Part shown: piece after piece, positions 2,062-13,674 of the stretch
Layout: the number at the start of each line of letters is the position of its first letter
Position numbering within the stretch: the stretch's first letter is position 1
NCBI GenBank assembly: GCA_945883425.1
Contig: CAMCXM010000004.1
Span: forward strand, 1-61,763
Direction of reading: 5' to 3'
DNA length: 61,763 bases
Origin: Spirosoma fluviale
GTDB lineage: Bacteria; Bacteroidota; Bacteroidia; Cytophagales; Flexibacteraceae
The notes under the pieces: generated by a model
Seen by the model: the letters and a program-made list of their open reading frames with translations, nothing else
Database searches by the model: none
What the model was told of the DNA's origin: nothing
Position numbers and translations under genes: made by a program

Positions 2062-5000
2062 ATGCAACTAAGTAAACTGGAAATCAAAGGCTTCAAAAGC
2101 TTTGGTGATAAGATTACCATTCATTTTGATAAAGGTGTGACCGGCATTGTCGGTCCGAATGGTTGCGGAAAATCCAATGTTGTCGACGCCATCCGCTGGG
2201 TTTTGGGTGAACAGAAAACCCGGAACCTCCGCTCCGACAAAATGGAAAACCTCATTTTCAACGGCACCCGGACGCGAAAACCGTTGCAAATGGCAGAAGT
2301 GAGCCTCACATTTCTGAACACGAAAAACATTCTCCCAACCGATTATACATCGGTTACCATCTCCCGCCGCTACTACCGGGATGGCGACAGCGAATATCTT
2401 CTCAATGGCGTTACCTGCCGCCTCAAAGACATCACAAGCCTTTTCCTGGATACCGGTATCGGACCCGATAGTTATGCCATCATTGAATTAAAAATGGTGG
2501 ACGATATTTTGTCGGACAGGGAAAACAGTCGTCGTGCCTTGCTCGAAGAGGCCGCCGGTATTTCGAAATTTAAGATCCGGAAGAAGGAAACCTTCCGGAA
2601 ACTGGAGGATACAGAAGGCGATCTGACCCGTCTGGAAGATGTGCTGTTCGAAATACGGAAGAACATGAAAGCCCTTGAAAAACAGGCACGGCAGGCAGAA
2701 GAATATTACCAGATTAAGGAAAACTACCGACAGGCGGCCATTGAACATGGTCGCTTCAGTATGGCTTCGAAAGCCGAGGTACTCAATGATCTGAAAAAAA
2801 GGATAGGGGAGAGCCAGAATCTTCGTTCCGAATTTTCGGCTAAGATTGCCACACAGGAATCAGAACTGGAGAAGATCAAGTCCGATTTATTGCAGGAAGA
2901 AAAGACGCTTTCATCCAGACAAAAGACACTGAATGAGTACGTATCCAAAATACGGGAGATTGAAAGTCAGAAAAAGATCCGGGAAGACCGCCACAGTTTT
3001 TATACAGAACGGTTAGGAAAGCTCCACGGGGAAATCAGCCAGATTGGAGATCAAAAGAATTCAGTTGAAAAGACGCTTTCTCAAGCTCAAAAAACAAAAG
3101 AATCGGAAGAACAGAAACAGTCAGAAATAAAGCTGGATCTGGAAGAGGCCCAGGAAATTCTGGCTTCCGCCAAAGAGGATTCAGAGCGTATGAGGGCTCA
3201 GTTGGATGTGGCGAAAGAACTGCTTCAGCAAAAGCAACAGGAACTATACCAGACAGAAAAAACACTGGAGTTTTCCGAAACGCAACGAGCCGATCTGGAA
3301 AACGAATTGAAAAAAGCACTCGTCGCAACAGAAGATCAAACGGTTTTCCTCGAAAACTTCGAAAAGAAACTGGCAGCCATTTCCATCACAGCAACGGAAA
3401 AGTCTGCGCAAATTCTGGATCTGGAAAAAAAAGAAATTAAACTGAATCTTTCCATTGAAGCAAACATTACAGATGGAGAGAATATAAAAACACAACTGGC
3501 GGATTACTACAGAAAACTTGATGCCAAGCAAAATGAATTCAACCTGATTAAAGCCATGGTTGAAAATCTGGAAGGATTTCCGGAGGCGGTTAAGTTTTTG
3601 AGGAAAAATAAATCATGGAGTAAGAAAGCTCCACTCGTTACAGACATAATCAACATTGATGAAAAGTATAAAATGGCACTGGAATCTGTGCTTGAGCCAT
3701 TTTTGAATCATTATGTTGTCCAGTCTGAAACAGAGGCATATCTGGCAATGAAGCTTTTGTCGGAAAACCATAAAGGGAAAAGCAGTTTTCTTATTCTGGA
3801 CAGGCTTCAGGCATATCAATCGAAAGAACCAGAGGAACTGGAGGATGCTTTGCCTGCCATTTCATTGGTTGAATACGATCCTGTTTATGAAAAGCTGGTT
3901 TCATACCTGTTAGACGATATTTATATCACAAACAAAACGATTCCATTCACTGCAGCTGCATCAACAGAAACGCCGGTTCTGTTTGGTGAATTGTCGTGGG
4001 ATTGGTCGCAACACACAGTGGTTTCCATATCGGGAGCCATGACAAAACGAAGGTTCAGTCTTTCGGGTGGATCAACTTCTGTTTTGGAAGGAAATAAAAT
4101 CGGAAAAGCTCTTCAGTTGAAAAAGCTGGAAACCGAAATTTCCGACCTTAACATACTGATTCACAACGAGAAAATCAATCTCGAGCAAAATCAGGAGACG
4201 GTCGTTCAGCTGCGTCAAAGCACCGGAAAAAGTCTGATCGACCATCTTCAGAAAGAAGTGAACCAGCTCCGTCAGGAAGAAGCAGCATTGGTAGCACGGA
4301 AAGAACAATCGCTTGAATTGTTAAATAGTTCCGCTGCCAGAAAGGACGACATCGCACGGAAAATTGCGCAACTGTCTGAGGTTTTTGAAACACAAACTCC
4401 CGTCCTTGAAAAAATCAGGCTCCACGTGGAACAGTTGAATCTGGAGATTGAACAAAACCAAATAGCCTGGAAGAAAAAATCAGAAGAAACGACGATGGCT
4501 TCTGGCAAGTTCAATCAGTTGAACATTCTGGCGATTCAACTGCAAAACAGTTTAATCTCTACGCAGAAAGAAATCGATTTCAGAACAAATGAAATCAACC
4601 AACTGGAGAGCCGCCTGGAACAAGCAAAACAGGAAAAAGAAACCGTTACAAAAGAGTTGAGCCAACTTTCGGTAGGAGACGAGTCCGCCAATCTAGAACT
4701 CCCTGGCCTGTATGAAGAAAAGAAACTCATAGAGGACGGCCTCAATGAAGCGGAGAGAACCTATTTCGAGGCCAGAGGGGGCATCGAAAGCCGGGAAAAA
4801 GAAATTCGGGAATACAGTCGAAAACGGGAACAAATTGCTGTGCTCATCAGCGAATGCCAGGAAGCACTGAATTCGGGACAAGCACAAATGATCGCGATTC
4901 AGGAAAGACTGAATATCGAATTTGAGACCATGATCAGTTGGGAGGAAGGATTACCAGAACCCAATGCAAAAGAGGAAGAAACCTGGAGACAAAAAGCGCA

Positions 5001-5631
5001 ATCGGTTCGCAATCAGCTTGACCGAATGGGACCCATCAATCTGATGGCCAGAGAAGCCTATCAGGAAATAAAGGAACGGCACGATTTTATAGAGGCACAA
5101 AAGAAAGATCTTCTGGAGGCAAAAGAATCGCTTGCCAAAACAATAACAGAGATTGAAACAGTAGCCAGAGAACACTTCAGTCAAACCTTTCAGAAGGTTC
5201 AGGAGAATTTCAAACTGGTGTTCCGATCTTTGTTTACAGAAGAAGACACCTGTGAATTGGTCTTGCACGATCCATCCCAACCGTTGGAAAGTGCCATCGA
5301 CATCATGGCACGACCGAAAGGAAAGCGACCATTGACAATCAACCAGCTATCGGGAGGAGAAAAGACATTGACCGCGATATCTCTTCTGTTTGCCATTTAT
5401 CTGATTAAGCCGGCACCTTTCTGTATTTTCGATGAAGCCGATGCACCGCTGGACGATACCAACATTGACAAATTCAATAAAATCATCCGGAAATTTTCGG
5501 ATGAAAGCCAATTCATTATCGTGACCCACAACAAACGAACGATGGCCAGCACAGATGTTATTTATGGTGTAACCATGCCTGAACAAGGTGTAAGCCGGGT
5601 AATTCCGGTTGATCTAAGAGAATTGGCATGA
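2062..5631 (+). CDS. smc: Chromosome segregation protein SMC
   Basis: A full-length 1189-residue SMC ATPase. The N-terminal head has Walker A GPNGCGKSN at residues 31-39. Two long coiled coils (about 170-500 and 665-1010) flank a hinge at about 510-650. The C-terminal head has the ABC signature LSGGEKT and the Walker B stretch FCIFDEADAPLDD. SMC is loaded at parS by ParB and compacts and segregates newly replicated origins. Its neighbours fit this: a parS-like site lies 47 bases after its stop and a candidate oriC about 6 kb further on. The ATG has no obvious Shine-Dalgarno site, usual in this phylum. scpA and scpB are not in the window. Confidence 0.97.
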   Translation: MQLSKLEIKGFKSFGDKITIHFDKGVTGIVGPNGCGKSNVVDAIRWVLGEQKTRNLRSDKMENLIFNGTRTRKPLQMAEVSLTFLNTKNILPTDYTSVTISRRYYRDGDSEYLLNGVTCRLKDITSLFLDTGIGPDSYAIIELKMVDDILSDRENSRRALLEEAAGISKFKIRKKETFRKLEDTEGDLTRLEDVLFEIRKNMKALEKQARQAEEYYQIKENYRQAAIEHGRFSMASKAEVLNDLKKRIGESQNLRSEFSAKIATQESELEKIKSDLLQEEKTLSSRQKTLNEYVSKIREIESQKKIREDRHSFYTERLGKLHGEISQIGDQKNSVEKTLSQAQKTKESEEQKQSEIKLDLEEAQEILASAKEDSERMRAQLDVAKELLQQKQQELYQTEKTLEFSETQRADLENELKKALVATEDQTVFLENFEKKLAAISITATEKSAQILDLEKKEIKLNLSIEANITDGENIKTQLADYYRKLDAKQNEFNLIKAMVENLEGFPEAVKFLRKNKSWSKKAPLVTDIINIDEKYKMALESVLEPFLNHYVVQSETEAYLAMKLLSENHKGKSSFLILDRLQAYQSKEPEELEDALPAISLVEYDPVYEKLVSYLLDDIYITNKTIPFTAAASTETPVLFGELSWDWSQHTVVSISGAMTKRRFSLSGGSTSVLEGNKIGKALQLKKLETEISDLNILIHNEKINLEQNQETVVQLRQSTGKSLIDHLQKEVNQLRQEEAALVARKEQSLELLNSSAARKDDIARKIAQLSEVFETQTPVLEKIRLHVEQLNLEIEQNQIAWKKKSEETTMASGKFNQLNILAIQLQNSLISTQKEIDFRTNEINQLESRLEQAKQEKETVTKELSQLSVGDESANLELPGLYEEKKLIEDGLNEAERTYFEARGGIESREKEIREYSRKREQIAVLISECQEALNSGQAQMIAIQERLNIEFETMISWEEGLPEPNAKEEETWRQKAQSVRNQLDRMGPINLMAREAYQEIKERHDFIEAQKKDLLEAKESLAKTITEIETVAREHFSQTFQKVQENFKLVFRSLFTEEDTCELVLHDPSQPLESAIDIMARPKGKRPLTINQLSGGEKTLTAISLLFAIYLIKPAPFCIFDEADAPLDDTNIDKFNKIIRKFSDESQFIIVTHNKRTMASTDVIYGVTMPEQGVSRVIPVDLRELA
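4418..4433. promoter_or_regulatory. Possible second parS-like site inside smc
   Basis: GGCTCCACGTGGAACA lies within the smc coding sequence. It keeps the CACGTG core and the AACA arm, with three mismatches to the bacterial parS consensus TGTTnCACGTGAAACA. It could be a weaker ParB site, or chance given that it sits in coding sequence. Confidence 0.3.
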
Positions 5632-5677: not shown

Positions 5678-5693
5678 TGTTCCACGTGAAACT
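5678..5693. promoter_or_regulatory. parS centromere-like site
   Basis: TGTTCCACGTGAAACT matches the widely conserved ParB-binding consensus TGTTnCACGTGAAACA at every fixed position except the last base. It lies in the 74-base gap between smc and mnmG. parS sites cluster near oriC in most bacteria, and mnmG (gidA) is a classic origin-proximal gene. This is a sequence match; ParB binding is inferred. Confidence 0.8.
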
Positions 5694-5705: not shown

Positions 5706-7577
5706 ATGTTTTCAACATACGATGTATTGGTAGCAGGGGCAGGGCATGCCGGATGTGAAGCAGCAGCAGCAGCAGCCAACATGGGATCAAAAGTTCTTTT
5801 GGTTACCATGAACATGACAACCATCGGACAGATGAGTTGCAATCCTGCCATGGGCGGTGTGGCCAAAGGTCAGATTGTTCGGGAGGTAGATGCACTTGGT
5901 GGTCTGTCAGGAATCATATCCGATAAAACAACCATCCAGTTTCGGATGCTAAATCGCTCCAAAGGTCCTGCCATGTGGAGCCCAAGAGCACAAAACGACC
6001 GATGGCGATTTGCTGAAGAATGGCGACTCCATCTGGAAGCCATTCCAAATGTGGATTTCCTGCAGGACACCGTCGTCAGCCTTATCGTGAAAGACGACCG
6101 TGTGATTGGCGTAAAAACACAACTGGGATACGAAATCCATGCAAAATCGGTTGTTCTGACAAACGGGACATTCCTGAATGGACTCATTCATATTGGAGAA
6201 AAGCAACTAAGCGGAGGACGGATCTCCGAGTCATCCGCAACGGGAATCACTGCCCAGCTCGTCGAACTTGGATTCAATACAGGAAGAATGAAGACTGGAA
6301 CTCCACCCAGAATAGACGGACGGAGTCTCGACTATTCCAAAATGGATGAACAACCGGGAGACGAGAATCCTTCCAAGTTCTCATTTTCGGACGAAACAAA
6401 AGCCGTTGAAAACCAGAGAAGTTGCTGGATTACCTATACCAACGACAAAGTCCATTCCGTTCTGGAAAAAGGATTCAGCCAGAGTCCGATGTTTACAGGA
6501 CGGATACAGGGACTTGGTCCACGATACTGTCCATCCATCGAAGATAAAATCACACGATTCGCAGATAAGGACCGGCATCAGATTTTCATTGAACCAGAAG
6601 GCTGGAACACCGTTGAAATTTATGTGAATGGCTTTTCGACGTCACTTCCATATGAGGTGCAGATGGAAGCCATGAAGCATATACCGGGTTTGGAAAACGC
6701 CAAAATATTCCGGCCGGGTTATGCCATTGAATACGATTATTTCCCACCCACTCAGTTGAAGCCAACGCTGGAAACTTATCTGGTTGAAAATCTGTATTTC
6801 GCCGGACAGATCAACGGAACAACCGGTTATGAAGAAGCCGCTTGTCAGGGACTGATGGCGGGTATCAATGCTCACCTGAAAGTGAAAGAGGAAAATCCTT
6901 TTGTGTTGAGCCGTTCCGAGGCTTACATCGGTGTTCTCATTGATGACCTCATCACAAAAGGAACCGAAGAACCATACCGCATGTTTACTTCCAGAGCAGA
7001 ATTCAGAACACTGCTGAGGCAAAACAATGCCGATGTGCGACTTACCGAAAAAGGAAGAAACATCGGTCTGGCCAGTGAACAACGTATGTCACGACTCCGT
7101 GAAAAATTGGAGAAAACGGCACAAACCTTGGAGCTCTGGAAAACACTGAAACTACCATTGGATGTGATCAATCCACTGCTTGAATCGAAAGGGACGCCAC
7201 TTTTAGTTGAGAAAGCCAGCATCGAAAACCTTCTGAAAAGACCACAGCTTGAAATCGCGGATTTTGAACCATTCTTTGACAAAATCAATCCGTACAATGC
7301 CGATGCTGAAATTTTGGAGGAGGCAGAGATCCAGATAAAATACAAACCTTATATCGAGAAAGAAAGTCAGATCGCCATTAAAGTGACCAACAGTGAAAAC
7401 AAATCACTTCGGAAAGACATAGATTTTAAATCGATCAAAACACTCTCCAACGAAGCCCGGGAAAAACTGACCCGGTTAAAACCAAAGACATTGGGAGAAG
7501 CCCGAAGAATAAGTGGCATCTCTCAATCTGATTTATCCATTTTACTTCTTTACGCTGTAACATCTGATGAAAACTGA
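5706..7577 (+). CDS. mnmG: tRNA uridine-5-carboxymethylaminomethyl(34) synthesis enzyme MnmG
   Basis: A 623-residue FAD protein of normal MnmG (GidA) length. The dinucleotide-binding motif GAGHAG is at residues 11-16, the GRMKTGTPPRIDGRS segment follows in the first third, and the PMFTGRIQGLGPRYCPSIEDK block and a C-terminal helical domain are all present. With MnmE it installs the cmnm5 modification on U34 of tRNAs reading NNA/NNG codons, using FAD, NADH, glycine and methylenetetrahydrofolate. Its last 11 bases overlap the next gene, implying co-transcription. A parS site sits just upstream, in keeping with its usual position near the origin. Confidence 0.97.
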   Translation: MFSTYDVLVAGAGHAGCEAAAAAANMGSKVLLVTMNMTTIGQMSCNPAMGGVAKGQIVREVDALGGLSGIISDKTTIQFRMLNRSKGPAMWSPRAQNDRWRFAEEWRLHLEAIPNVDFLQDTVVSLIVKDDRVIGVKTQLGYEIHAKSVVLTNGTFLNGLIHIGEKQLSGGRISESSATGITAQLVELGFNTGRMKTGTPPRIDGRSLDYSKMDEQPGDENPSKFSFSDETKAVENQRSCWITYTNDKVHSVLEKGFSQSPMFTGRIQGLGPRYCPSIEDKITRFADKDRHQIFIEPEGWNTVEIYVNGFSTSLPYEVQMEAMKHIPGLENAKIFRPGYAIEYDYFPPTQLKPTLETYLVENLYFAGQINGTTGYEEAACQGLMAGINAHLKVKEENPFVLSRSEAYIGVLIDDLITKGTEEPYRMFTSRAEFRTLLRQNNADVRLTEKGRNIGLASEQRMSRLREKLEKTAQTLELWKTLKLPLDVINPLLESKGTPLLVEKASIENLLKRPQLEIADFEPFFDKINPYNADAEILEEAEIQIKYKPYIEKESQIAIKVTNSENKSLRKDIDFKSIKTLSNEAREKLTRLKPKTLGEARRISGISQSDLSILLLYAVTSDEN

Positions 7578-8454
7578 AATTCTTGAATCCTGTCCATCCT
7601 GCGGTTCAGCCAACATACAACACCTGGTCAATGTACCAGATCACTATTACAGCAAAGAAGTTTTTCCCGTTTTTGAATGCAAGGATTGTACATTACGATT
7701 CACACAAAACCGACCCACACAAAGTGAAATCGGACGGTATTATGATTCGGAAAACTATGCCAGTCACGACTCCAAGAAGAAAGCCAGTCTTTTCCTGAAA
7801 GTCTATCAGGAGGCCAGAGACTGGATGCTGGGCCAAAAATTCAACCTGGTCCGCCAGTTTAAACCAGAGTGGAAAAAGGTGCTGGATTACGGAACCGGAG
7901 AAGGATTCTTTACCGAGTATCTGCTGAAACAAGGAAAAGAAGCAACCGGAATCGAACCATCGGAGGTGGCCCGCCAGAATTTTAAGGACAGAACAGGTAG
8001 GGAACTGTATGCGGACATTTCTCTGCTCCCAAACAATTCCACCTTTCATGTAATCACCCTCTGGCATGTATTGGAACATATCCACACCCTGCGGCAAACG
8101 ATGCAGGAACTCGTCAACCGCATTGACAGCAAGGGCATTATGGTGATTGCCGTACCCAACCAAAAATCCAGCGATGCAAAATCATTTGGAACCGAATGGG
8201 CAGCCTGGGATGTTCCCCGCCATTTATACCACTGGGATGAGCAATCGCTTGGACATTTTATGAAGAGTCTGGGGATGACACGCATTTATACGTCCCAACT
8301 ACCTCTGGATCCATTGTATATCGGAATGATCTCTGCTAAGTACCAGGGGAAAAGCTCCATTGGAGGAATCTTCACAGGGATTCAATCCTATTTGCATGGA
8401 CGACAAAATCCATCTGAAGGCTCAACGCTTCTCACGGTATGGATGAAAAACTAA
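7567..8454 (+). CDS. Class I SAM-dependent methyltransferase with N-terminal zinc-finger-like motif
   Basis: A 295-residue protein. Four cysteines as CxxC pairs (residues 9/12 and 38/41) form a probable zinc ribbon. The methyltransferase domain follows, with SAM motif I around residues 105-114 (VLDYGTGEGF) and the late motif WHVLEHI, as in the Methyltransf_23/UbiG-like group. The substrate cannot be read from the sequence. The start overlaps the end of mnmG by 11 bases and the end overlaps the next small gene by 16, so this is a tightly coupled operon. It could modify a lipid, a sugar or tRNA. Confidence 0.85.
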   Translation: MKTEILESCPSCGSANIQHLVNVPDHYYSKEVFPVFECKDCTLRFTQNRPTQSEIGRYYDSENYASHDSKKKASLFLKVYQEARDWMLGQKFNLVRQFKPEWKKVLDYGTGEGFFTEYLLKQGKEATGIEPSEVARQNFKDRTGRELYADISLLPNNSTFHVITLWHVLEHIHTLRQTMQELVNRIDSKGIMVIAVPNQKSSDAKSFGTEWAAWDVPRHLYHWDEQSLGHFMKSLGMTRIYTSQLPLDPLYIGMISAKYQGKSSIGGIFTGIQSYLHGRQNPSEGSTLLTVWMKN

Positions 8455-8615: not shown

Positions 8616-10093
8616 TGAAATACCTGTCTGTTGTGGTTCTGTTTCTGGTGAACGCCTGTGCCAGTGTCAAAGCCCCGGATGGTGGTCCAAAGGACTCTGC
8701 TGCTCCGAAACTGAGCCAAACCAATCCCGGACAAAACGCCACTGATTTTAAGGCAAAAGCGATTGTGCTGGAATTTTCAGAAGATGTGGTGGAGAACAAC
8801 TCCAAAGTTCAGTTTCTCTCACCACTGACAAGTGTAACCACCAATCCACTTGGAAAGAGATTAAAAATTACCGCCGATTCCGGCTGGAAACCCAATACAA
8901 CATACGTTCTCAACCTCCGGAAAAAGATCAAAGACGAAAGAGAAGGCAACCCGTTAAAAGACACAACCATTATCTTTTCAACGGGTCAGGTTCTGGATAC
9001 AATCTCAGCTTCCATTCAGATCGTCAACAAATCAAACAAAACAAGTGCCGCTAAGTATACGGCCCTTTTCCACAACCAAAACACCTATGCCGGAACAACC
9101 GACAGTTTAAAACCTTTGCTGATAGAAGGACTTGCCTCCAGAAAATATCTGGTCGAAGTTTTCACCGATAAAAACGACAACTACCAATATGACGAAGAAG
9201 ATGGAATGCTATTTAGCGACAGCATCCGGATGGATTCATCTATTAATCTGATCGTCAAACCTTTACCTCAGAAATTTAAACCGACAAAGATCTTCAAACA
9301 GCGGAAAGGCGATACGCTGATGATTGAAAGTACACAACGGATCGAAGCGGACGAACGATTCAATCGATTCACAATCGCCGACAACGAAGAGAAAACCTTG
9401 TTCTGGCTCTACCCGGTGACATCCGATTTTGAATACTCCTTTTCGGATACACTTCGAAACTGTTATCAGGATACCATCTCTTTGCTCTCGATCGACTCCA
9501 CCCGTAGTTTGACAAACATTCCGCTGAAACGGGAAGTCATAATCAGTCGGAACAAAAAAGAAACCAATGTACAGTTTCAATGGAACTGGCAGATCAGGCA
9601 ATTCCCGACTCTACTTGAGATAACCCAGGATTCCATCTGGAAACAAGTGATTCCTGAAAAAGAAAAGACAGGTTTTACACTGAGAATCAACGATGTAAAA
9701 ACAGGAAGACTCAAAATCCGTTTCGATACCCTTCAGTTCATGAACCAAATGGGGATTCGAAAAGACTCCATCGATATCACCAAGGGTGACCTCGAATCGT
9801 TTGGGATGGTATCGGGAAAACTGGATACCAAAGATGTGGGTGGCTACCAGATTGAACTCATCAACAGTGCGAAAAAAACGGAAGCAACCGGATCTGGCAG
9901 CGCATTTCAATTCTTCGTCAGACCCGGAAAATATACGCTTCAGGTTTTCAAAGATCTGGATGGAGACGGACAGTACACGGGCGGAAACAAAAAGGCCCGG
10001 CGACAAGCCGAGCCTCTGTATATTGTGCCGGAACCCATCGAACTGAAACCAGGATGGGATCTGGAAAATATTGTTGTAAGACCTGATTTCTAG
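8612..10093 (+). CDS. Ig-like domain-containing lipoprotein
   Basis: A lipoprotein of about 493 residues. The start is set at the tandem ATG at 8612-8617, giving a clean type II signal peptide ([16 protein letters not shown]) with lipobox VNAC; an upstream in-frame ATG at 8540 lies inside the preceding small gene and would spoil it. The mature protein begins with APDGGPKD and a Big_5-type bacterial Ig-like domain (about residues 25-125, with VLEFSEDV and TTYVLNL), the typical start of a widespread Bacteroidota lipoprotein family. The rest looks beta-rich, including an acidic [13 protein letters not shown] loop that may bind calcium. Role unknown; probably an envelope-anchored surface or periplasmic protein. 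It converges with fumC, sharing CTAG. Confidence 0.85.
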
Positions 10094-11481
10094 CCAGCCG
10101 AAACCATATCCTCCGGACGAACCCAAAGATCGAATTCTTCTGAGGTAACATAGCCCAGCGCCATCGCTGACTCTTTCAAGGTCAGATTCTCCTTATGCGC
10201 TTTCTTCGCGATCTCAGCTGCCTTGTAGTAACCAATGTGGGTATTTAAGGATGTCACCAGCATCAGTGAATTCTGCAAGTGCTTTTGAATCGACATATGA
10301 TTCGGTTCAATTCCTTCCACACAATGCTTACGGAACGAATCGCAGGCATCGGCCAGCAGATTGGCTGCCATCAGGAAGTTAAAAATGATCACCGGCTTAA
10401 ACACATTCAACTCGAAGTGTCCATTCATTCCCCCAACTGAAATCGCCGCATCGTTACCAATCACCTGTGCACAAACCATGGTCAATGCTTCTGACTGAGT
10501 TGGATTGACCTTTCCTGGCATGATGGATGAACCCGGCTCATTCTCGGGAATCAGAATTTCGCCAATACCAGAACGAGGACCGGAAGCCAGTAAACGAATG
10601 TCATTGGCAATTTTCATTAACGAAACCGCCAGTGTTTTTAAGGCTCCCGAAGCGAAAACCTGTGCATCATGAGCTGCGAGAGATTCAAATTTATTAGGCG
10701 CTGTAATGAACGAGTGACCCGTGAGTTCTGAAATCTTTTGAGCAACCAGAACATCGTACCCCTTTGGTGCATTGAGTCCGGTACCAACGGCTGTTCCGCC
10801 CAAGGCAAGTTCCGAAAGGTGAGAAATGGATTGTTCAATGTGACGAATTCCGTGTGTAAGCTGAGCCGTATACCCCGAAAATTCCTGACCGAGCGTTAAC
10901 GGAGTGGCATCCATCAAATGGGTCCTTCCAATTTTTACGACTGACTGAAATGCTTCTGCTTTTTGCGCAAACACATCCCGAAGTTGGGTAACCATTGGAA
11001 TCACTTTCTCTTTCAACACCTTAACGGCTGCAATGCTCATAGCGGTAGGGAAGGTATCGTTGGATGACTGAGACTTATTCACATCGTCGTTCGGATGCAG
11101 GACTTTCTTTTCATCCAACAGATTTCCCCCTTGTAAAACATGTCCACGATTTGCGACCACTTCATTCAGATTCATGTTAGATTGCGTACCGGAACCGGTT
11201 TGCCAGACAACCAGAGGAAACTGATCATTTAATGAACCTGCCAGAATTTCATCGCATACCTTACCAATCAAATCTGATTTCTCTTTTGGAAGAACACCCA
11301 GATCCATATTGGCCAGGGCGGCTGCCTTTTTCAAATAGGCAAACGCATGGATTATTTCCATCGGCATGGTGTGTCCTCCTATCTGAAAATTCTCTCTTGA
11401 ACGCTGTGTCTGCGCACCCCAATACGCCTGAGCCGGTACTTTTACCTCGCCCATGGTATCTTTCTCTATCCGATATTCCAT
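10090..11481 (-). CDS. fumC: Class II fumarate hydratase
   Basis: A 463-residue fumarase C of the usual length. It interconverts fumarate and L-malate in the TCA cycle. The superfamily signature [11 protein letters not shown] is at residues 317-327 and includes the catalytic Ser318. The second catalytic region [10 protein letters not shown], with His188, and the substrate-binding [10 protein letters not shown] segment are also present. The GSSxMPxKxNP loop and length match fumarase rather than aspartase, although the two are related. Its promoter side faces the candidate replication origin. Confidence 0.96.
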
Positions 11482-11850
11482 TGATTTTAAGAAACTTAAC
11501 TTTTTATACTTTGTTCACAAAACTGTTGACAAGTCTAAGACAGAATGTGGATAAAGTACAAGCTATCCACAAAAAGAATCTGACCCCACAGGTTTCATCC
11601 ACATTCTTCCAACTTATTCACATTTGATCCAGTGACCGTGCACAGTTCCACAAATGACCGTTTCCGGTTTAACAAAATCAATAAACTCTTAGTTTTCCAG
11701 TTACCAAAAGCCGCCACTTAAAGTGATTCTTTAATTATCCACAAAACTTATCCACATATCCACACCCCTAACAATAGAAACAATAAATATTTAAATATTT
11801 GTACATTAATATAGACGTGTGGAGAATGTGGAAAACACGAAATTGAAAAA
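11482..11850. other. oriC: Candidate chromosomal replication origin (oriC): DnaA-box cluster
   Basis: No gene lies here. Perfect DnaA boxes (TTATCCACA or its complement) are at 11546-11554 (minus), 11735-11743 (plus) and 11748-11756 (plus); TTATTCACA at 11614-11622 matches TTATnCACA. One-mismatch boxes are at 11563-11571, 11595-11603, 11756-11764, 11818-11826 (minus) and 11827-11835 (minus). That is nine boxes in about 290 bases, arranged around an AT-rich tract (11769-11814). Density, a putative unwinding element, the nearby parS and the smc/mnmG neighbourhood together support oriC. dnaA is not in the window, which is common outside classical dnaA-linked origins. A heavily DnaA-regulated promoter is the alternative. 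Confidence 0.75.
11765..11814 (+). other. Putative DNA unwinding element with DnaA-trio-like array
   Basis: The plus-strand box ATATCCACA (11756-11764) is followed directly by CCCC and then six consecutive triplets with a central A (TAA CAA TAG AAA CAA TAA, 11769-11786). After that comes an almost pure A/T stretch to about 11814. Box, short GC spacer and DnaA-trio is the basal unwinding layout described for bacterial origins; four of the six triplets fit the stricter consensus. Functional assignment is inference. Confidence 0.5.
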
Positions 11851-11865
11851 ATGAAAAGGAGCGAA

Positions 11866-13674
11866 ATGAAAAACGGAATTCTCATCCTCATACTGGCGTT
11901 GATTCAAACCATTGCTTTCGGGCAAACAAAATCTGAAAAGAAAGAGCTGGCGGATGAATACCTGAAACGGGAGAATTATCAAAAGGCATTGGACAATTAC
12001 GAGGACCTGGCAGGAGATGAAGCCTGGGATCCTTTGATTTTCAAAAACTATATTCTATGTCTTGATAAACTCAAGCCAACCAAATCGGAATCCGTCATCA
12101 AAAAATATCTGAAGCGTTATCCACAGGAGATGATGTACCAGACATTTCAGTTTACCTGGTTGAAGAATGTAAAAAAGGACGAAAAGGATTTTCAGAAATA
12201 TACCCGCTCAAAATTGATCCCCTGGTTTTTGCAGACCAGCGAACGGACCCGCTTCGGGTATTCCTTTTTCCTGCAGAACCAGAATCCCGAATTTGCTGCC
12301 GTTATACTGGATGACGGAATCAAACAGTTTGGTTTATCTGCCATGTGGAAAGAAGTATTCCAGGCCCAGTTGGCAGAGAAAAAATACCCGCAGCTTTCGC
12401 AAACCATCATGCAGCTTCTGGATCAGAAGGTGCTGGATGAAAATGAGCTGGAGGCCTATCTGCAGGAACACATCGCCATTGACGAACTGGCCCGTTTGCT
12501 GCAGATCGAATTGTTAAAGAGCATTCAACTAAAACCATCTGCGATTGTGTACCCTTCCTTTCTGGGATGGATTTATGTACAGAAGAAAGACTTTGATGGA
12601 GCCCTCATTCAGTACAGAGCCCTTGACCTTTTGCAGAATACAGGCGGAACCCGCTGCTATCAATTGGGTGAATTTGCGGTGAACAATGATCTGATTCCAC
12701 TGGCGATCAAGAGTTTTGAATTTGTGATCAACAGCTTTCCGGCCAGTCAGTATCGCTTTCTGGCGCAACAAAAGATAGTTCAATTGCGGGAAGACCGGGT
12801 TCGGAATACGTATCCGGTGAAAACGGAAGAAGTGAGGGCCCTCATTGCCGAATACAACAACCTGGCGCAAAGTCAGTACCTCAACCTTTATGATCTCAAT
12901 ATGAAAGTAGCGGAGCTGTACGGAAAGTATCTCAACCGGCCCGATTCCGCGATTTTCATTCTGGAAGAAAGTATGAAGACCCGACGATGGCCTTCCATTT
13001 TTCAGAACAAAGCTAAAATCCTATTGGGCGATATGTACATTCTCAAAGACGAACCCTGGGAAGCCAGTCTGTTATACGGACAGGCGGAAAAGGATGAAGC
13101 CGAAAGTCTGGTCGGGTATGAGGCCAAGCTGAAAAATGCGAAAGTGTTTTATTTCAAAGGAGAGTTTGAGCTCTGCCAGGAGCAGCTCGATGTTCTCAAG
13201 CAAAGCACCAGCCGCGACATCAGCAACGATGCCATCGAGTTGGGCTTGCTCCTTCAGGACCTTCTTGCGGAGGACACCACGGGTTATTTCCTGTCCAAAT
13301 TCGCCGATATTGACCTGCTTACCTTCCAGGGAAATTACCCGGCCGCGATAGACCAGATCGAAAAGCTGACATTGACCATTTCAAACCCGGTTGTTTTGGA
13401 AAAACTCAAGTACCGTTTGTTCACCAATTTTTACGCGACCCGTCAGTTTGAAAAGTCGCTGGAGCAGCTCGATCAGATTTACAAAGCCAAGGCATCGGAT
13501 TTGTATCTGGACGATGCCCTGTTTAACAGCGGCGTCATTTATTCCGATCAGTTGAAGGATAAGGAAAAAGCGATGGGGTTCTTTCTGTCACTCATCAAAG
13601 AACATCCGGGTTCGGTGTATGTGGCCGAATCGAGAAAGCGACTTCGGATTTTGAGGGGGGATAGTGCCAATTGA
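11866..13674 (+). CDS. TPR-repeat secreted protein
   Basis: About 602 residues. The ATG at 11866 is preferred: it has AAGGAG four bases upstream and gives a clean signal peptide (MKNGILILILALIQTIAFGQ); an in-frame ATG at 11851 adds five polar residues. The mature protein is helical with repeated tetratricopeptide-like units (for example residues 20-55, 375-460 and 510-590, with YQKALDNYEDLA and DDALFNSGVIYSDQLKDKEKA). TPR proteins scaffold complexes; here it is probably periplasmic. No enzymatic domain is visible. Its promoter must lie within or beside the DnaA-box region, so transcription and origin activity could interact. Confidence 0.85.
   Translation: MKNGILILILALIQTIAFGQTKSEKKELADEYLKRENYQKALDNYEDLAGDEAWDPLIFKNYILCLDKLKPTKSESVIKKYLKRYPQEMMYQTFQFTWLKNVKKDEKDFQKYTRSKLIPWFLQTSERTRFGYSFFLQNQNPEFAAVILDDGIKQFGLSAMWKEVFQAQLAEKKYPQLSQTIMQLLDQKVLDENELEAYLQEHIAIDELARLLQIELLKSIQLKPSAIVYPSFLGWIYVQKKDFDGALIQYRALDLLQNTGGTRCYQLGEFAVNNDLIPLAIKSFEFVINSFPASQYRFLAQQKIVQLREDRVRNTYPVKTEEVRALIAEYNNLAQSQYLNLYDLNMKVAELYGKYLNRPDSAIFILEESMKTRRWPSIFQNKAKILLGDMYILKDEPWEASLLYGQAEKDEAESLVGYEAKLKNAKVFYFKGEFELCQEQLDVLKQSTSRDISNDAIELGLLLQDLLAEDTTGYFLSKFADIDLLTFQGNYPAAIDQIEKLTLTISNPVVLEKLKYRLFTNFYATRQFEKSLEQLDQIYKAKASDLYLDDALFNSGVIYSDQLKDKEKAMGFFLSLIKEHPGSVYVAESRKRLRILRGDSAN

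Follow-up and report, generated by a model that had tools for sequence, protein, structure and literature searches.

A probable chromosomal parS site between smc and mnmG, with a putative second site inside smc, near the predicted replication origin of a Bacteroidota genus

The locus from smc to the candidate origin

The window, by which we mean the whole stretch of 61,763 nucleotides analysed here, carries a 16-base palindrome in the short gap between smc and mnmG, with a candidate replication origin further along. The features on which the analysis draws are the following.

2062 to 5631, plus strand: smc, encoding the chromosome segregation protein SMC, 1189 aa (TIGR02168, 987 bits, cut-off 567)
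4418 to 4433, no strand assigned: putative second, degenerate parS site GGCTCCACGTGGAACA, on the smc codons AGG CTC CAC GTG GAA CAG (R-L-H-V-E-Q)
5678 to 5693, no strand assigned: parS site TGTTCCACGTGAAACT, in the gap between smc and mnmG
5706 to 7577, plus strand: mnmG (gidA) (TIGR00136, 829.8 bits, cut-off 524.85)
7567 to 8454, plus strand: methyltransferase gene, kept downstream of mnmG in Bacteroidota (PF13489)
11546 to 11835, no strand assigned: candidate oriC, with DnaA boxes at 11546, 11614, 11735, 11748 and 11827
11851 to 13674, plus strand: TPR protein gene, marking the right-hand border of oriC across the order (PF13174)

The palindrome TGTTCCACGTGAAACT was originally predicted to be a near-consensus parS between smc and mnmG, differing from the consensus at its last base alone, and both descriptions hold. 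Fifteen of its 16 bases agree with the degenerate parS TGTTYCACGTGRAACA, the last base being the sole difference, and its 14-base core, GTTYCACGTGRAAC, matches the parS core at 14 of 14 positions; compared with the strict palindrome TGTTTCACGTGAAACA, the site has two mismatches. The site follows the smc stop codon, whose last base is 5631, by 46 bp, and mnmG begins at 5706, 12 bp after the site. The distance to the candidate oriC, estimated earlier at about 5.8 kb, measures 5.85 kb from position 5693 to the DnaA box at 11546.

Is such a match meaningful in a single stretch of DNA? Chance was gauged by shuffles and by a reversed control pattern. With up to three mismatches to the strict palindrome allowed, 0.43 sites are expected in the window, so one match there is not significant by itself. 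The genome as a whole was then scanned, as a 3.75 Mb draft of 228 contigs that is 94.5% complete and from which more parS sites may be missing. The original prediction expected parS hits to gather in this region; the genome's single exact copy of GTTYCACGTGRAAC is the one at 5678-5693, with none elsewhere, and the reversed control has no exact copy in the same 3.75 Mb. At two mismatches, 40 matches are found genome-wide versus 37 for the reversed control, which marks the weaker matches as background.

A parS site presupposes a ParB, and the original prediction was staked on the presence of one. In the genome a single ParB-like gene exceeds the family cut-off (G000:C106:2297-2815, 182.9 bits, cut-off 58.45), with a parA-like ORF beside it, upstream and on the same strand; this parAB pair lies on contig C106, not on the contig of smc and mnmG, and its position relative to oriC is not derivable from the draft. 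The ParB carries the motifs GERR and ENIQREN, which we take to be those of the CTP pocket, then the helix GKKRATVNNYLRLLK and, further on, GHAR. Its closest solved structures are ParB and Spo0J proteins. The residues that read DNA can be located in GKKR...NY...K...GHAR as the equivalents of R173, Y179, K184, G201 and R204 (Caulobacter numbering, PMC7383237). R173 and G201 are reported to be invariant in ParB, their counterparts in Noc being Q and R (PMC7383237). By sequence, the DNA-reading residues of this protein are of the parS (ParB) type and not of the NBS (Noc) type.

The candidate origin lies between fumC and the TPR gene and includes an AT-rich stretch at about 11777-11812. Neither in the window nor in 20 stretches each of G014 and G018, two complete single-contig relatives, is GC skew strong or clean enough to place the origin; dnaA lies on another contig. 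The gene order mnmG, methyltransferase, Ig-like protein, DnaA boxes, TPR gene recurs across the order, and the TPR gene stands to the right of the DnaA-box cluster in eight of the genomes compared (G001, G003, G004, G005, G006, G009, G014 and G015). Within the 500 bp upstream of TPR-gene homologs (25 x 500 bp, 12.5 kb), TTATCCACA occurs 64 times, compared with 26 times in the other 279.5 kb of those 25 named loci; its reversed control occurs once upstream of the homologs. The origin call gains support from this conserved position of the cluster ahead of the TPR gene, and we regard the DnaA boxes at 11546-11835 as the likely, predicted replication origin. The fumC gene itself (10090-11481 in the window) separates the Ig-like gene from oriC and is encoded on the opposite strand; G001, G003 and G004 share this arrangement, and no fumC homolog was found at that place in the other loci compared.

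Conservation of the site and of its partners

The site was compared at two depths, across 80 other mnmG loci (L019-L098), of which 79 are labelled Bacteroidota or fall within that phylum, and across 59 genomes of the order, 54 of them good. Two of the loci have doubtful labels: L086, titled Limnohabitans and labelled Pseudomonadota, has an mnmG that groups among Flavobacterium in the tree, and L024, titled Cellulophaga, has one that falls near Runella; both are probably mislabelled or mixed MAGs.

An exact core is present within 300 bp upstream of mnmG at 63 of the 80 loci, and a relaxed core at 72. At half of them (40/80) at least two exact sites precede mnmG, mostly spaced 37-48 bp apart, or about four helical turns, and 30 have an extra site just after the gene. 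When both ends of mnmG are excluded, the remaining 912,711 bp of the same loci contain no exact core. A lopsided variant, TTTCCACGTGGAACA, takes the upstream position in a group comprising Larkinella, Dyadobacter and Fibrella (L037, L039, L042, L047, L049, L050, L052, L063 and L077). Of the loci where mnmG is not preceded by a strict site, the eight checked for ParB all have it, which argues that the site has moved or been altered there rather than lost along with ParB. The methyltransferase homolog follows mnmG at 64 of the 80 loci. A literature search turned up no paper on paired parS sites upstream of mnmG in Bacteroidota, nor on the smc-parS-mnmG layout.

Within the order, the site is associated with ParB. 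The exact core is absent from all five good genomes without ParB over the cut-off and present in 40 of the 49 with it (Fisher p = 6e-4 over 54 genomes, with losses coming from two families only). One of these families, f2, has no ParB, and the other, f14, has a weak or divergent one. Because the losses are limited to these two families, we treat the apparent co-loss of ParB and parS as supportive and not decisive. Nine ParB-bearing genomes have no strict core, and one of these, G006, has TTTCCACGTGGAAC upstream of mnmG, a variant resembling that of the Larkinella/Dyadobacter group.

The fate of SMC is a separate matter. Ten genomes have ParB over the cut-off and no SMC over its own (G019, G020, G021, G025, G031, G037, G038, G046, G052 and G053), and several of them retain parS; family f2 (G011, G030 and G045) has SMC, with ParB and parS both absent. 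SMC and ParABS thus seem to have been lost independently in the order.

Does the site belong to mnmG or to the origin? The site is found together with the DnaA-box cluster even where mnmG lies elsewhere. In G005, whose mnmG is on a different contig, two parS sites are found 6-10 kb away from the conserved DnaA-box cluster, both of them intragenic, in an Asn-synthase-like gene and a glycosyltransferase gene. In G015, where mnmG is likewise on another contig, the site lies 7 kb from the cluster, and a distance of 25-36 kb separates mnmG from the exact site in G009, G038 and G053. These placements suggest that parS tracks the origin region, if loosely, rather than mnmG. In G027, no DnaA-box cluster was found in the 20 kb around parS.

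These comparisons bear on whether the palindrome is an element that regulates mnmG, or the site of some other regulator that binds CACGTG palindromes, its likeness to parS being incidental. A position 12 bp before the start codon would suit such an element, as would the upstream copy at mnmG in most of the phylum. We nevertheless consider this improbable: parS is kept without an adjacent mnmG in six genomes (G005, G009, G015, G027, G038 and G053), the further copy after mnmG and the copy inside smc in three congeners are out of place for it, and families without ParB over the cut-off keep mnmG and not the site. A by-effect of ParB on the transcription of mnmG or smc is possible. Lying as it does between two co-directional genes, the palindrome might also be imagined to act as RNA, either as a hairpin in the leader of mnmG or as the terminator of smc. 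Half-changed palindromes, though, are split almost evenly between the C..A kind (23), unpaired as RNA, and the T..G kind (21), which could wobble (p = 0.88), which points to a DNA site; the palindrome in the window belongs to the C..A kind, and no T run follows it. With no preference for pairing-compatible variants, we rejected the hairpin as very improbable. A chance match, for which the expectation in the window had left room, has practically nothing in its favour, because exact cores recur upstream of mnmG and are absent elsewhere in the same loci, the orthologous place keeping its site across the phylum.

We conclude that the 16-base palindrome at 5678-5693 is almost certainly, judged by its sequence and distribution, a real parS, the bacterial 'centromere'. 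Among the points that count against this are the departure of the last base from the consensus, the draft state of the genome, the varying distance to mnmG in relatives, the case of G027, the nine ParB-bearing genomes with no strict core, and the weak GC skew.

What, then, of smc? The gene at 2062-5631 is the sole full SMC gene of the genome. Throughout the genus, as sampled by five genomes (the window's and G001-G004), it immediately precedes mnmG, and each genome has parS at the orthologous place. Near mnmG in the rest of the 59 order genomes no smc was found, the gene lying on other contigs or far off, and no smc homolog was found in the available flanks of the 80 other mnmG loci. The widely conserved unit, as read from these gene orders, is parS-mnmG-methyltransferase-(Ig-like protein)-oriC-TPR gene, which smc appears to have joined late. 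Because SMC acts in trans, its gene need not adjoin the place where the protein is loaded; the adjacency of smc implies no function. The proposal that smc, parS and an origin candidate form a compact segregation locus is right in that the three lie close together (the origin being a likely one), and too broad in that the arrangement is a genus-level one, seen in five genomes only.

A parS-like site inside smc

A further site, which the first reading of the window overlooked, lies within smc at 4418-4433. Its core, GCTCCACGTGGAAC at 4419-4432, agrees with the parS core at 13 of 14 bases, with one mismatch, and it lies 1.26 kb from the main site. At the same smc codons, three of the four congeners (G001, G003 and G004) carry the exact GTTYCACGTGGAAC, and in these genomes the main site and the smc site are the only exact cores; the interval between the two is 1.2-1.3 kb. 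The site is absent from G002, where a core with one mismatch lies instead 41 bp ahead of smc.

Is this a DNA site, or merely protein sequence that happens to resemble one? Over the motif, 11 consecutive nt are identical in four genomes; within the gene only one invariant run is longer, and no other run in the SMC coiled coil reaches 10. Invariant SMC residues are encoded by identical codons in just 27% of cases. We read the smc site as a second, putative parS whose DNA sequence is probably under selection in some or all of the genus; in the window's species it would have weakened.

The stretch may still be no ParB site at all, and simply encode a conserved piece of protein (K-F-H-V-E-Q) or be a decayed relic. 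The core mismatch in the window's copy and the absence from G002 speak for this, as does the small sample of five genus genomes, among which G003 and G004 are close (SMC 95% identical). Against it, adjacent coiled-coil residues vary freely and the codons of the motif are fixed, third bases included; the site is exact in three congeners, 1.2-1.3 kb from the main one, in genomes with no other exact core; and even G002 carries its one-mismatch site just before smc. We hold this alternative to be unlikely, if a good deal less so than those weighed for the main site, and keep to the interpretation of a second, putative parS.

Segregation from a two-site locus

How does this arrangement compare with known systems? 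It resembles the chromosomal parS of the ParABS systems of Bacillus subtilis, Caulobacter and their relatives in its 16-bp palindrome TGTTYCACGTGRAACA, in its place near the origin and in the presence of ParA, ParB and SMC genes in the genome, and differs from them in having one full and one degenerate site only, and in having parAB on a different contig from parS. In B. subtilis and many proteobacteria, parAB lies beside mnmG/gidA near oriC. With the paired parS sites of other Bacteroidota (Algoriphagus, Echinicola, Flavobacterium, Pedobacter) it shares the core and a location in the gap that separates the mnmG start codon from the gene before it. Those relatives mostly have two closely spaced sites in that gap, whereas the window's genus keeps a single site there, its second lying 1.2-1.3 kb farther upstream within smc or, in the case of G002, shortly before that gene. 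The gene preceding mnmG also differs, being smc in the window and ybeY in G014. Sites of parS inside coding sequence are known, as in B. subtilis spo0J, and the smc site is similar in being a (putative) ParB site embedded in a segregation gene. The host gene in B. subtilis encodes the binding protein; here it would encode the cargo that is loaded at parS.

By analogy with the known family, ParB binding, CTP clamping and SMC loading would be expected at the main site. ParB from the single parAB operon would nucleate on TGTTCCACGTGAAACT as a CTP-dependent clamp, and the clamps would slide onto the flanks, mnmG on one side and smc on the other. Through ParB-parS, ParA would separate the freshly replicated copies of the origin region, and SMC would be loaded at the same complex. 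The genus would use a two-site layout, a main site and a weaker or decayed one in smc, both about 6-7 kb from oriC. To this joint reading, a chromosomal parS with ParB nucleation, origin segregation by ParA, SMC loading and the two-site layout of the genus, we assign a probability of roughly 94%. More speculatively, the capture of smc beside parS and the in-frame parS could mean that ParB clamps spread over smc and tune the transcription of smc and mnmG by origin copy number, a feedback between the loading platform and its cargo; we think this doubtful.

The parS site as such is ordinary, and the novelty lies in the two-site, smc-embedded layout, which appears modestly unusual. If bound by ParB, the smc-embedded site would be an unusual case in which a motor's own gene harbours the place where that motor is loaded. 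For an uncultured Bacteroidota genus, the analysis provides a firm and testable position for parS and for oriC. In a phylum whose chromosome segregation is little studied in the literature searched, parS upstream of mnmG, often paired and near a conserved DnaA-box cluster, is widespread.
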